A DNA stretch of 64,000 nucleotides, from assembly GCA_021781795.1 (NCBI GenBank), contig JAJXWA010000012.1:1-64000 (forward strand), in the 5' to 3' direction. This document shows positions 27,457 to 56,746 of this stretch, in pieces. The position numbers were made by a program, and so were the translations under genes. The notes below the pieces were generated by a model. It ran no database searches. It was not told the DNA's origin and saw only the letters and a program-made list of their open reading frames with translations. The number at the start of each line of letters is the position of its first letter. Within the stretch, counting starts at the first letter, position 1. Source of the DNA: Acidobacteriota bacterium. GTDB lineage: Bacteria > Acidobacteriota > Terriglobia > Terriglobales > Acidobacteriaceae.

Positions 27457-28557
27457 ATGCCCACCACCCAACCACCCACTGCAGCCAACGAGCCGAACGA
27501 GTCGAACGGCGCGAACGAGCGCCCTGAGGCCTCGTCCCTGACCGCGTCTCCGGCCACCGAAGAGCCGCGCTCGGATGAACCGCGTGGCTCCGGCCGCGCG
27601 ACGTCCCGGTGGGTTGACTACGACACGCACGAACTGCTGGAGATGATCAGCGAGCTTGAGGATGAGCGCCGCTGGTCGCGGCTGCGCGAGGGCATCTGGC
27701 TCGCCATTCTCATCCATATTCTGCTGCTCTCGGCCATTACGTGGATTCCGAAGTATGTCTTCCGTGTGCCCCCGGTTGTCGATCCCTTTGACGCCATTAA
27801 GCAGCGCAAGGATCTCAGCTATCTCGACCTGCCACCCGACGCGCTGCGCCAGCTCCAGCCCAAGGTGAAGGTCAAGCCGTTGCCGGAGAAGAAGCCCCTC
27901 ATCGACAAGCAGACGCTCGAGGAGATGAACAAGCCGGAGGCTGCGCCGCCTCCACCGCCGCCTCCCACCGAGCAGCCCAAGGCTGAAACCCCGCAACCAG
28001 CTCCGCCCATTCCGCCCAGTGCGCAGTCGCAGTCGCAGATCAGCGCGCCCCGTCCGCAGGCCGTACCGGCGCGGCCCAACTTCGCCATGCAGTCTGAGAA
28101 CCCCGCCGACCAGCTGCGCGAGGCCATGCGCGGAGCCGCGCAGAATCGCGGCTCCAGCGGCAACAATTTGCCCTCCGGCGGCGGCTTGTCGATGCACCCC
28201 GGCGCGGGCACCGGTGGCGTGGAAGTCCTCTCGGACACGCAGGGGGTGGACTTCAACTCCTGGCTCATGCGCTGGCACCGTGAGACCGAACGCACCTGGG
28301 ACCCGCTCATTCCCGACGAGGTCAATCCGCCGATCCTCAAGTCCGGTGCCGTCATCATTCGCTTCAAGGTGTTGCCCAATGGCCGCGTCATGGATGGCAG
28401 CATGGTGCTCGAAGGCCGCTCCGGCGATACCGGCCTGGATCGCGCCGCATGGGGCGCCATCACCGGCTCAAATTATCCGCCGCTGCCGCGCGAGTTCCAC
28501 GGGCCGTATCTTGAACTCAGGGCAGTCTTTCTCTACAACATGCAGCCGCCTCAGTAG
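27457..28557 (+). CDS. TonB-family protein
   Basis: The 366-residue protein has a Ser/Asn/Glu-rich cytoplasmic head (1-70), one TM helix (about 80-98; IWLAILIHILLLSAITW), a Pro-rich periplasmic spacer (130-200, including a run of eight prolines) and a TonB-like C-terminal domain (about 255-366; GAVIIRFKVLPNGRVMDG and ALRAV-type strands near the end). This matches TonB energy-transducer architecture, linking inner-membrane proton motive force to outer-membrane receptors. The cytoplasmic head before the TM is much longer than in E. coli TonB. No exbB or exbD is in the window. Confidence 0.8.
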   Translation: MPTTQPPTAANEPNESNGANERPEASSLTASPATEEPRSDEPRGSGRATSRWVDYDTHELLEMISELEDERRWSRLREGIWLAILIHILLLSAITWIPKYVFRVPPVVDPFDAIKQRKDLSYLDLPPDALRQLQPKVKVKPLPEKKPLIDKQTLEEMNKPEAAPPPPPPPTEQPKAETPQPAPPIPPSAQSQSQISAPRPQAVPARPNFAMQSENPADQLREAMRGAAQNRGSSGNNLPSGGGLSMHPGAGTGGVEVLSDTQGVDFNSWLMRWHRETERTWDPLIPDEVNPPILKSGAVIIRFKVLPNGRVMDGSMVLEGRSGDTGLDRAAWGAITGSNYPPLPREFHGPYLELRAVFLYNMQPPQ

Positions 28558-53118: not shown

Positions 53119-54402
53119 ATGATGCTGAAAAATTGGTATGCGCGGTGGATGTATGCATGGGAGACGCGCCTCACCACGCGCGACGAGAACCGCGTGGTCC
53201 GTCCGCTGGAATGGGGCTTTGAGTGGATCGCCCCGTTTCTCGAGGAGCACGGCTTCGGCGCGCTGCTGCCTGGCCGTGCGGGACTGAGCGAGGATTCCGC
53301 GGCAGAAGTTGCGATGGTGCGAATCAACGATCTGCTGATTCGCCACAGCGACAAGTTTTTCGGCTACGAGCGCCCAACAGATTTTCGCCTCGAAGTGCGG
53401 CACGCGGAGTTGTTTCCAACCAACGTCCGCCCGGAGACCCTCGCCAAAGATGCGGAGATCAAGCGGCAGGCAGCGGAGGGCCGGACCAAGCCTGCGCAAT
53501 TTCTCCGCTTCACCTCGCCGGAACGCACGCCTTATCCGGAGAATGATCTCGTCAATGCGCGCTGGTATCCCGCGCCCATCAACAAAGGCGATGCGCGCCC
53601 GCGTCAGGCCATTATCGTGCTGCCGCAGTGGAATGCCGACGCCTTCAGCCACAATGCGCTCTGCGCCATATTCAATCGAATGGGCATCTCGGCGCTGCGC
53701 CTGTCCAAGCCTTACCACGACATTCGCCGCCCCGCGGAGCTGGAGCGTTCCGATTACGCCGTAAGCGCGAATATCGGGCGCACGCTCTCGGCCTGCAGGC
53801 AGGCAGTCGTCGATATCCGCTGCTGCGTGGACTGGCTTGAGGAGCAGGGTTACGAACACTTCGGCGTACTGGGCACGAGTCTCGGCTCCTGCTATGCCTT
53901 TCTGGCCAGCATGCACGACCCGCGGCTCCGCGTGAATGCCTTTAATCATGCATCCACTTCATTCGGTGATGTCGTGTGGGCAGGCCAGAGCACACGCCAT
54001 ATTCGCGAGGCGCTGGAGCAGGCAGGGCTGACGCAGGAGCGGCTGCGCGCGCTGTGGGCGGCCATCAGCCCGGTCAGCTACTTTGACCGCATCATGACGG
54101 AAGAGTCTGGCGGTCGAGACAAGCGCGCGCTGCTCGTCTATGCCGACTACGACCTCACCTTTCCAAGAGAGTATTCGCTCAAAGTCGTCGAGGCGTTCCA
54201 GCGCGTAGGTCTCAACTTCGATCTGCGCGTTCTGCCCTGCGGGCACTATACGACCGGCGAAACGCCCTTCCAGTACATGGACGGATGGCACATGGGTTCG
54301 TTCGTGTATCGCGCCTTCAAGGCGCTGCGCGAGGAGAAGCCCGTGCCGGCTCTCGCGAAGGATGCGCTGGAGGCTGCGGAAGAGGAAGTGAGCGCGCGTT
54401 AA
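53119..54402 (+). CDS. Alpha/beta hydrolase-fold protein
   Basis: The 427-residue protein has an N-terminal region of about 165 residues without a known domain, then an alpha/beta hydrolase fold. The nucleophile elbow is GVLGTSLGSCYAF (Ser near 255). An aspartate candidate lies in LVYADYDLTFPREYS and a histidine in LPCGHYTTGETPF, giving a plausible catalytic triad. No signal peptide is seen. The ABHD18/DUF2048-type hydrolases are a possible relative, but I am not certain. Its stop codon overlaps the stop of the convergent kinase-like gene by 4 bases. Substrate unknown. Confidence 0.75.
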   Translation: MMLKNWYARWMYAWETRLTTRDENRVVRPLEWGFEWIAPFLEEHGFGALLPGRAGLSEDSAAEVAMVRINDLLIRHSDKFFGYERPTDFRLEVRHAELFPTNVRPETLAKDAEIKRQAAEGRTKPAQFLRFTSPERTPYPENDLVNARWYPAPINKGDARPRQAIIVLPQWNADAFSHNALCAIFNRMGISALRLSKPYHDIRRPAELERSDYAVSANIGRTLSACRQAVVDIRCCVDWLEEQGYEHFGVLGTSLGSCYAFLASMHDPRLRVNAFNHASTSFGDVVWAGQSTRHIREALEQAGLTQERLRALWAAISPVSYFDRIMTEESGGRDKRALLVYADYDLTFPREYSLKVVEAFQRVGLNFDLRVLPCGHYTTGETPFQYMDGWHMGSFVYRAFKALREEKPVPALAKDALEAAEEEVSAR

Positions 54403-55826
54403 CGGCTGGTGAGCGAGGGTGTGACGCTCACGCCGGATTGCCGATACGCGAAGTGAAGCAGCCATGTCCGTGCAGATCCATTCGCCGCAGGGTCAAAGCG
54501 CCATTGCTGCGCCGCCTCCTGAGAGATTCTGGCGAAGTAGCGGCTGGGGCCGGGCGACTCCAATTCCGTGCTGGTCACGTCGCCCGATGAACCCGCAGTG
54601 ACGCGGACTATCACGTTCACCTTGCCTTGAATCGAAGCTTGCGCCGAAGGCAGCACCTTCGGCATGACCTGCTTCACAACCCCATTTCCCACCGATGCTG
54701 CGGGTACAACCACGTTCGGCGATGCTTCGACGGAAGGGGAGTCGGCAGACGCGCGATGTTCCGGCCGGGGTTTGGCTTTGGGCGTGGCAGTCGCTCTGTG
54801 TGACCTGGGCACAACGCTGCTCGCTTGTGGAACGGCCGCGGAGGCATCGGGCGGCGTGGCTTGCCGCGACGAGCGCAACTCCCATACTGCAAAGAACACG
54901 GCCACTGCGGCAGCAGCGGACAGAATTGCGGCGCGGAGGCGACGTCTGGGTCTGGCTGCGCCCTCGGTGCTGCCCCAGCCATCGGTAGACAGGCTCCTCG
55001 AGTGGCGCTGGGAGCCTCCATCAGCTGTGCCGCTTGCGCTTAGACTCTGGCCCGCAAGCATCGAACGCACATCGCTGATCGAACAGCGCAGCGATGGCTG
55101 CGGCTGCAGGCATGCGCGGGCAATCGAGGCAAAGGGCTCTGGCACTTCAGGCGGAACCTTGGGCACAGCTTCGATGGCCCGGTTCCAGTCCAGCGGGTGC
55201 TGCGTGAGCGTCTCCACAATGGTCATGCCCAGCGACCACATGTCGGTAGCAGCAGAGAATGGAAGGGAGCCAATTTCGGGGGCATCGTAAATCGAATGCG
55301 CACTGCCGGAACGTCCCAGGGAGCCCGCGAAACAGATTCCGTCCATTGCAATCTGTAATCGATCCTTGGAGACCAGCAGATTCGAGGGCTTCAGGTGCGC
55401 ATGGACCAGGCCGTTTTCGTGCAGGTAGGAAAGCGCATCGAGGACAGGATCGAGCATCTCGCGGGTTTCGCGTGCTGTGAGCGCTCTCTGGGGCAGTAAC
55501 GACGCAAGAACCTCATCGGCATAGTCCATTACAACGTAGAAGATGTCGATGCCATTCAGCATGCAGGCGCCGACGTACAACATCGGCATCAGGTGAGGAT
55601 GGACGATTTCTCGGTCCTGCGGCTTTCCCAGGATGCTGGCTTCGAGGTCGATGGAGCCGGCCGGTATCAGCTTGATGACAACCTTGCGCGCGGGGTCCTC
55701 GGGCAGCACGGTCAGATAGACGCCGCTGTGCGCAGAGCCGCCCAGCCAATCACGCAGGGGGAAGAGTCCATCGACGACTTGACCGGCCCAATCGCTTCGG
55801 ACCACTGCTTTCATGCCACAAATCAT
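54399..55826 (-). CDS. Pseudokinase with TM helix and TonB-like C-terminal domain
   Basis: The protein, about 475 residues, starts with a serine/threonine-kinase-like domain (about 15-260). The VAIK lysine (KVVIKLIP), APE (DAPEIGS) and DMWSLG motifs are present, but the catalytic loop reads VHAHLKPSN. Histidine therefore replaces the essential aspartate of HRDLKPEN, and DFG is changed to MDGICFAG. A TM helix follows (about 300-318; AAILSAAAAVAVFFAVW), then a Pro/Ser spacer, then a TonB-type C-terminal domain (about 400-470; GKVNVIVRVTAGSSGDV, QQWRFDPAA). The start is uncertain: TTG 55850, ATG 55826 or ATG 55814. It lies just after an M23 peptidase gene and probably shares its transcript. Confidence 0.85.
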   Translation of the reverse strand: MICGMKAVVRSDWAGQVVDGLFPLRDWLGGSAHSGVYLTVLPEDPARKVVIKLIPAGSIDLEASILGKPQDREIVHPHLMPMLYVGACMLNGIDIFYVVMDYADEVLASLLPQRALTARETREMLDPVLDALSYLHENGLVHAHLKPSNLLVSKDRLQIAMDGICFAGSLGRSGSAHSIYDAPEIGSLPFSAATDMWSLGMTIVETLTQHPLDWNRAIEAVPKVPPEVPEPFASIARACLQPQPSLRCSISDVRSMLAGQSLSASGTADGGSQRHSRSLSTDGWGSTEGAARPRRRLRAAILSAAAAVAVFFAVWELRSSRQATPPDASAAVPQASSVVPRSHRATATPKAKPRPEHRASADSPSVEASPNVVVPAASVGNGVVKQVMPKVLPSAQASIQGKVNVIVRVTAGSSGDVTSTELESPGPSRYFARISQEAAQQWRFDPAANGSARTWLLHFAYRQSGVSVTPSLTSR

Positions 55827-55861: not shown

Positions 55862-56746
55862 TTACGGAAGGGCCGTAAGATTCAGTGTCAGCAGCTTCGC
55901 CGGGTCGAGATACGCGCCCTGCCAGCGCACGGCCCAGTGCAGATGCGGGCCCGTGACGCGGCCGGTAGCTCCGCTCAGGCCCAGCAGTTGGCCCTTCGCT
56001 ACGCGCTGACCCTCGCGCACACGAATGCGGCTCAGATGCATGTCCATGGTGAAGAGGCCAAGCCCATGATCGAGGATGACGCAGTTGCCTTCGTAGTAGA
56101 GCGGGCGCGCCAGCACAACAATGCCCGCATTGTCCGCGACGACCGGCGTACCCGTACGTGCTCTGAAATCCATGCCCTTGTGAATGCTGGACAGTTCGCC
56201 ATTAAAGACGCGGCGCGTGCCGAAGCTGTCTGTAGGCTCCGCGCGAACCGGAGCGCGAAAACCTCCATGCCAGAGGCGCTCTGGAATGCTCGCAGCAAAG
56301 ACGGCCGCCTTGATCTTCTTCTCGTCGTCGATCTGCCGGAGTTCCTCCCCGCTGGGCGCTATAAAGCGCGGTGCAACGCTGAGCGTGCTGGTGCGGTAGT
56401 GAGCCGGATAGATGAGGATGGTCTGGATGAGGTTCTGAGTGACGGAACCCGCGGTGACCGAAATATCGAGTTGCGAAGGACCGGAGGGCGCTTCGACATC
56501 CACTCCGGCCAGCGCATACCAGACGTCGCCTGTGTCCGCCCGGAAGAAATCGAGCTTGCGGCCGAGCCACTCGCCTTCGGGCTTTGCCTCAGCGGGCGCC
56601 GCAACGCGAATGATCTCCGGCGAGCCCGCTTCCACATTGGAGGGCGTGAGCGTGACGACCGGAGCGGAAGCTGTCTGCGCCGATGCGGAGAGCGATCCGC
56701 AGCCAGAGATAAGCATCAGGGCACAAAAAAAGCGAGAGCCGGCCAT
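55862..56746 (-). CDS. M23/LytM-family peptidase, putative lipoprotein
   Basis: LytM-type zinc endopeptidases cut peptidoglycan cross-links or activate amidases. The 294-residue protein starts with a signal sequence whose ISGC could be a lipobox (Cys 16). An N-terminal beta domain (25-160; VTLTPSNVEAGSPEIIRVA) precedes the M23 domain (about 175-290). Zinc ligands are intact: HKGMDFRA (His, Asp) and GPHLHWAV (HxH), with MDMHLSRIRV supplying the third active-site histidine. It lies between the EF-hand-like repeat gene and the pseudokinase gene, all in the same direction. Confidence 0.92.
   Translation of the reverse strand: MAGSRFFCALMLISGCGSLSASAQTASAPVVTLTPSNVEAGSPEIIRVAAPAEAKPEGEWLGRKLDFFRADTGDVWYALAGVDVEAPSGPSQLDISVTAGSVTQNLIQTILIYPAHYRTSTLSVAPRFIAPSGEELRQIDDEKKIKAAVFAASIPERLWHGGFRAPVRAEPTDSFGTRRVFNGELSSIHKGMDFRARTGTPVVADNAGIVVLARPLYYEGNCVILDHGLGLFTMDMHLSRIRVREGQRVAKGQLLGLSGATGRVTGPHLHWAVRWQGAYLDPAKLLTLNLTALP

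Follow-up and report, generated by a model that had tools for sequence, protein, structure and literature searches.

What might a protein do that carries a kinase fold stripped of its catalytic aspartates in front of a membrane helix and a TonB-type domain behind it? The question is raised by a gene in a 64,000-nucleotide stretch of an Acidobacteriota bacterium (contig JAJXWA010000012.1, positions 1 to 64,000), referred to here as the window. Positions 54399..55814 of the minus strand encode a protein of 471 residues plus a stop codon (54399-54401), which was aligned with 127 homologues. An earlier note on this DNA had placed the gene in the correct minus-strand frame but started it at 55826, an alternative in-frame ATG; the ATG at 55814 is preferred. 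The architecture of the protein, with a protein kinase fold, a membrane helix, a linker and a TonB C-terminal domain, was confirmed far beyond chance, so that the union of these parts in one protein described in the earlier note stands. All parts of the protein given below lie on the minus strand.

The pseudokinase domain covers about residues 8-256 (55047..55793). The window protein gave significant matches to the protein kinase-like fold (PF00069/PF07714), with Pkinase at 9.9e-20 for residues 89-249 and PK_Tyr_Ser-Thr at 7.8e-11 for residues 28-252, and among solved structures the family profile comes closest to PknB (7.3e-28). The catalytic loop reads LVHAHLKPSNLL, with the motif VHAHLKPSN at residues 137-145 (55380..55406), where HRD has become HAH and His140 takes the place of the essential aspartate, as had been claimed. 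The DFG motif is likewise altered: in a profile alignment M-D-G aligns to the D-F-G of PknB, and Met157, within the degenerate region QIAMDGICF (residues 154-162; 55329..55355), replaces the metal-binding aspartate.

These losses extend throughout the family. A total of 131 frames was recovered from the fetched loci, and 128 were aligned, the window protein included; L004 and L115, which hold a C-terminal half on the same contig, and L116, a duplicate of L005, were dropped. The HRD aspartate column holds Asp in 1 of the 128 sequences, Arg in 59 and His in 53, and the DFG aspartate column holds Asp in none. Both aspartates are absent in 127 of 128, and neither the canonical H.D.K..N nor DFG occurs in any member. 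The alignment of catalytic loops was the check proposed in the earlier note, with an intact HRD aspartate among homologues as the finding that would count against inactivity; within the family only L133 has this residue, and L133 lacks the DFG aspartate, so the pseudokinase assignment holds. Since the loss is seen across the aligned homologues, the inactivation is a property of the family and not a local mutation. Judged by its sequences, the family is one of conserved pseudokinases. HRD and DFG are present in the six other kinases detected in this genome (88% complete). Three family members, L112, L113 and L114, are longer proteins (572, 574 and 542 residues) that occur as second copies beside a standard one in their genomes and have lost the loop asparagine.

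Several other positions of the active site are retained. The beta-3 lysine (Lys48, in the motif VVIKLI at residues 45-50; 55665..55682) is kept in 122 of 128 members, as is the catalytic-loop asparagine (Asn145), and a new aspartate (Asp158) stands one position after the lost DFG aspartate, again in 122 of 128; all three are kept jointly in 115. The commonest loop of the family is HG[RH]xKPSN and the commonest DFG region is KLS[SAT]Dx. The retention of these residues favors an active non-canonical enzyme, in which the aspartate after the lost DFG position, or another group, would support a phosphotransfer or nucleotidyl reaction, and the accessible text of a review lists other activities for SelO and SidJ (PMC12599244). 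However, such an enzyme is unlikely given the remainder of the site. Serine occupies the second glycine position of the glycine loop in 100 of 128 members and the third in 89, and the alpha-C glutamate column, placed by profile alignment to PknB, holds Glu in only 2, with an adjoining Trp in 112. Arg or His at the HRD position argues in the same direction, as does a short activation segment: the distance from the DFG aspartate column to the APE glutamate is 24 residues in 80 of the 126 measured members and 21-25 in 122, a stretch shorter than that of PknB in the profile alignment. Of the features of an active Hanks-type Ser/Thr kinase, namely the HRD aspartate, the DFG aspartate and a beta-3 lysine with its alpha-C glutamate, none is kept by the family as a whole. 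For the sensing of ATP by this domain, the kept Lys and Asn would allow it; the degenerate glycine loop and the lost alpha-C glutamate speak against canonical ATP binding.

Conserved loss of catalytic residues is shared with the ActPs1-3, GLW, CP1, DYD and DLHK families, which are known to us from the descriptions in the text of a 2025 pseudokinase review, and the GLW family also has a membrane region behind the kinase domain (PMC12599244). The window family differs from them, as far as these descriptions go, in that the beta-3 lysine and loop asparagine are kept while the HRD and DFG aspartates are lost. Its columns do not follow the ActPs2 pattern (Arg for the beta-3 Lys, Asn for the HRD Asp), the GLW pattern (GLW replacing HRD) or the DLHK pattern (HRD Asp kept, no membrane region) given in the same text (PMC12599244). 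Within the 42-family classification that underlies the review, the kinase domain may belong to a part that carries no name. In that text, taken without its figures, neither TonB nor Acidobacteri- occurs (PMC12599244), and no kinase-TonB_C or pseudokinase-TonB_C protein was named in the titles and abstract openings found, a coverage outside which the subscription journals fall. As far as searched, therefore, the pseudokinase-TonB_C family is real, conserved and uncatalogued.

Lost catalytic residues would also be expected of a decaying kinase gene without function, and the patchy occurrence of the family, with homologues in only 142 of 398 genomes drawn from the same taxonomic family (E <= 1e-20), could be read in this way. 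Those genomes, however, represent 33 of 79 genera, in which the frames are full length, and columns beyond the catalytic residues are invariant. The ratio of nonsynonymous to synonymous substitution rates (dN/dS), computed on six close pairs, is low for the kinase domain (0.145, 0.046, 0.069, 0.137, 0.313 and 0.151). For the same six pairs the TonB_C values are 0.762, 0.105, 0.084, 0.075, 0.903 and 0.100, and those of linker plus helix range from 0.25 to 0.69. We therefore reject gene decay as very improbable on the strength of the full-length frames, the low kinase dN/dS and the invariant non-catalytic columns. A draw at the level of the order, which overlaps the family draw, gave matches in 136 of 397 genomes, and a draw across the phylum in 4 of 396, all inside the own family.

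The C-terminal domain occupies residues 376-471 (54402..54689). In the window protein alone its match to Pfam TonB_C (2.4e-4, 21.9 bits) falls slightly below the cut-off of 24.6, and it is the matches of the family that settle the assignment. The NCBIfam model tonB_Cterm (TIGR01352) matches 67 of 67 family C-terminal domains at E <= 0.01, and the AgmX/PglI C-terminal model matches 52 of the 67 at the same threshold. Searched against solved chains, the domain profile gave 5.7e-7 for the best match, and the ten best were all TonB. An hhalign comparison with four further TonB_C domains from this genome gave 97%, against 0.4% for the control of kinase profile with TonB profile. AlphaFold2, run on two sequences, modelled the domain with a predicted local distance difference test score (pLDDT) of 90.9 (68-74 in the other four models). 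A Foldseek search with this model returned the C-terminal domain (CTD) of E. coli TonB first (1xx3; probability 1.00, template modelling score 0.72/0.77, E 6.6e-4), and this was the only match with E <= 0.001. The TonB-type fold that the earlier note had seen is thus borne out by model and family profiles alike. This subtype of TonB_C appears from sequence to travel with the kinase: of 27 kinase-less family genomes tested at 1e-8 (taken from 256), two gave a match. One, in G353 (8.9e-35), lies in a frame that runs off the fetched stretch and may be a cut copy of the family protein; the other, in G013, consists of weak matches inside multi-TonB_C proteins.

Between the two domains lie a single membrane helix (residues 295-313; 54876..54932; 19-residue hydropathy 2.08), preceded by an Arg-rich stretch, and a Pro/Ala/Ser-rich linker (about residues 314-375; 54690..54875), in agreement with the helix and Pro/Ser spacer noted before. 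A helix-like stretch is present in 126 of 128 family members, the exceptions being L005, a frame cut by a contig end with its remaining half on the L004/L115 contig, and L131. A Pfam scan of 103 members found Pkinase in all 103 and TonB_C in 98 at E <= 0.01.

A TonB-CTD fold on a Pro-rich linker, in a genome with four ExbB-type matches that may serve as motors, is also what would be expected of an energy transducer for outer-membrane transporters, in this case one gated by a cytoplasmic pseudokinase. We consider this rather unlikely, and the helix is the first reason. The S-x3-H spacing of the TonB motor motif is that of E. coli TonB. Neither S...H nor the wider [ST]xxx[NH] occurs in any of 125 family helices, that of the window protein included, and a histidine lies in the helix core in 2 of the 125. 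The wider motif was found in three of five other anchored TonB_C proteins of the same genome; it is missing from L175 and L180, so this control is imperfect. For L174, L177 and L178 the frames obtained did not hold TonB_C, and these were set aside. In TonB and TolA the membrane helix carries an SHLS motif that binds the motor (PMC12204202). Secondly, the linker of the window protein measures about 72 residues (78 by length minus 80; family median 55) versus 117, 160, 145, 225 and 189 residues in the five others, all estimated as length minus 80. Finally, the ExbB-type matches lie on contigs C14, C22 (two) and C32, the one on C14 at a distance of about 0.5 kb from the L172 TonB, and none was found on the window's own contig (C71). 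Because the motor motif is absent from 125 helices and no ExbB lies nearby, the window protein, for all its TonB tip, probably does not serve as a TonB energy transducer. The earlier note had suggested that the periplasmic part may touch an outer-membrane receptor; a contact of the kind made by TonB is doubtful with the shorter linker and the absent motif.

Two further TonB-like proteins were observed. L175:1-1737, on contig C58 of the same genome, combines a weak receiver-like domain (Response_reg 0.0094, under the cut-off) with a membrane helix and TonB_C at 2.9e-16, so that this genome has a second signalling-like domain on a TonB tip. Positions 27457-28557 of the window (plus strand) encode a TonB/TolA-like protein of 366 residues with a Pro-rich linker and TonB_C at 8.9e-4 (under the cut-off), followed by a TPR protein.

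The layout has partial parallels in known systems. PknB-type receptor kinases consist of a kinase, one helix and an extracytoplasmic PASTA sensor. The window family shares this order but has TonB_C in place of PASTA and lacks the catalytic aspartates. With the TonB and TolA force transducers, as described in the accessible text, the window protein shares a TonB-CTD fold on a linker behind one helix, whereas the preceding kinase fold (about 290 residues), the shorter linker and the helix without motor-type motif set it apart (PMC12204202). SjdR of Anabaena and GltJ/AgmX of Myxococcus also join a cytosolic part, a helix and a TonB-like periplasmic domain; the cytosolic parts, about 65 residues in SjdR, are not described as kinases in the portion of the source at hand (PMC8262864). 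EssB/YukC, according to the accessible text, resembles the window protein as a membrane pseudokinase with an extracellular domain that acts as a contact hub, YukC contacting all T7SSb components (PMC9600267). EssB/YukC is a subunit of the type VIIb secretion system (T7SSb) of Firmicutes (PMC9600267); the window protein carries TonB_C in place of a type VII secretion part.

On balance we favor the view that the window protein crosses the inner membrane once and works as a receptor or scaffold, linking a contact in the periplasm to a pseudokinase that acts as a switch. Sequence and structural model give direct support to a kinase fold without HRD and DFG aspartates, one helix, a linker and a TonB-CTD fold; the function and the ligands we infer. 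In such a receptor the TonB-type domain would bind a partner peptide through beta-strand addition, in the way known from TonB and TolA. The contact would lie closer to the inner membrane or the wall than to the outer membrane, and the protein would not be driven by ExbB/ExbD. Upon contact in the periplasm the pseudokinase would change its oligomer or its shape and would serve as a docking site or allosteric switch for a cytoplasmic partner without transferring phosphate. That partner is perhaps one of the cell's intact kinases, and the six other kinases of the genome could be candidates. The topology this requires, with the kinase side cytoplasmic and the TonB-type domain periplasmic, is consistent with a sum of 371 K+R versus 98 D+E in the 12 residues before the helix across 125 members. 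Overall, the interpretation offered in the earlier note is partly supported.

Several observations weigh against a receptor of this kind. Behind the helix, too, K+R outnumbers D+E (256 versus 77 in the same 125 members), and with an excess on both sides the charge rule supports the predicted topology only moderately. Modelling of the whole protein by AlphaFold2 from a single sequence reached a pLDDT of 34.9 and gave no useful kinase model. One family member, L131 (4984-5772), is a kinase-only frame with no convincing TonB_C or membrane helix downstream. Two of the six pairs have a TonB_C dN/dS of 0.76 and 0.90 (dS 0.05 and 0.13). Of the 398 family genomes, 256 lack the gene at E <= 1e-20, so it is dispensable in many. 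Finally, frame clustering of 129 loci (more than 3 kb on both sides in 95, less than 3 kb on one side in 34) gave a commonest neighbor cluster in 31, and no cluster recurs more widely than this, so that the neighbors point to no ligand or output.

The gene next to the pseudokinase gene on its upstream side encodes an M23 peptidase (55862..56746, minus strand; Pfam 8.7e-30), 47 bp before the ATG at 55814, and the two genes may share a transcript. This neighbor would fit a cell-wall sensor or regulator, with putative peptidoglycan binding, that acts with peptidoglycan hydrolases such as the adjacent one. The accessible text on Anabaena SjdR, a TonB-like protein with a cytosolic N-terminal extension, describes it as shaping septal peptidoglycan (PMC8262864). 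However, a frame similar to this M23 protein occurs in 5 of the 129 loci, the window and close relatives only, and none was found in the other 124 fetched loci, some of them short (blastp E <= 1e-4). The M23 neighbor named in the earlier note is therefore real, but the association is not general; we reject an M23 partnership as a general explanation and hold a wall sensor to be quite unlikely. Downstream, an alpha/beta-hydrolase gene (53119-54402, plus strand) lies tail to tail with a 4 bp overlap; its product resembles RcgR, a family of putative quorum-lactone hydrolases (158 bits at 3.2e-46, below the cut-off of 182). A recurrent operon partner was sought by the frame clustering, which returned lineage-local neighbors only; going by motifs, these are presumably an RNA-methyltransferase-like gene in 31 loci and, each in 16 loci, a GAPDH-like and a PGK-like gene. 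In 10 of the 129 loci the neighbors are paired large proteins encoded on the same strand. A scan for promoters and terminators stayed near chance (1 promoter-like site versus 0.6 expected; 4 terminator-like sites versus 2.5, standard deviation 1.8).

Kinase-TonB_C proteins also occur elsewhere in the phylum. The placing of the clade in Acidobacteriota depends on L004, whose contig JAGWML010000108.1 comes from an Acidobacteriota MAG and, over the 5700 bases compared, is identical to genome G383 of the same genus. The family TonB_C profile matched 43 of 347 phylum genomes, and frames were read in 16 of the fetched loci. Five frames outside the own family, L195, L202, L212, L209 and L216, join a kinase-like region to TonB_C. 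L195, from another family of the same class, has the loop FALGGLKPSAIM and lacks the activation segment (Pkinase 1e-4, TonB_C 0.0071). L202 (Pkinase 9e-49, TonB_C 1.1e-21) and L212 (2.1e-32 and 4.1e-14, with PEGA matches too), from other families of the phylum, have HRD and DFG and a membrane helix between kinase and TonB_C. L209 (0.066 and 2.3e-16) and L216 (2.6e-5 and 1.6e-16) have a degenerate kinase-like domain, also with a membrane helix and with a Lys/Glu-rich stretch; each is followed by a frame that we take to be glutamine-synthetase-like. The earlier note had called the fusion non-standard, and none is named in the titles and abstract openings found. L202 and L212, with their HRD and DFG, qualify the outcome of its check on homologues.

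In a 49-row tree (midpoint root; 30 of 67 A3 rows included; of 46 inner branches, 17 left open) the pseudokinase family and L195 form one side of a long branch (96/93), and L202 and L212 sit among ordinary kinases. The branch that holds L209 and L216 has a length of 3, and these two, like L212, do not pass the composition test. As the tree separates L202 and L212 from the family, it was rejected, with reserve, that the family and the intact kinase-TonB_C proteins descend from one fusion. When 199 genomes of the phylum were searched with L202, no other among the matches listed extended to its TonB_C end, and 19 C-termini inspected by eye showed no TonB_C. From these sequences, kinase-TonB_C fusions look recurrent in the phylum, with the pseudokinase family as one separate line.

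We tentatively raise a broader possibility, that in Acidobacteriota the TonB C-terminal domain has changed, more than once, from a force-transmitting tip into the sensor of trans-membrane receptors, attached to active or degenerate kinases or to a weak receiver-like domain. One branch would then signal by a dead kinase with a new Lys-Asn-Asp site, as a nucleotide-gated switch or with new chemistry. The family offers a test case: its 128 sequences share an inactive site that is conserved, its periplasmic domain is modelled with confidence, and the phylum holds analogues of the same layout with an intact kinase. The family also suggests that the TonB fold can be used as a sensor module in the periplasm, apart from any part in import across the outer membrane.

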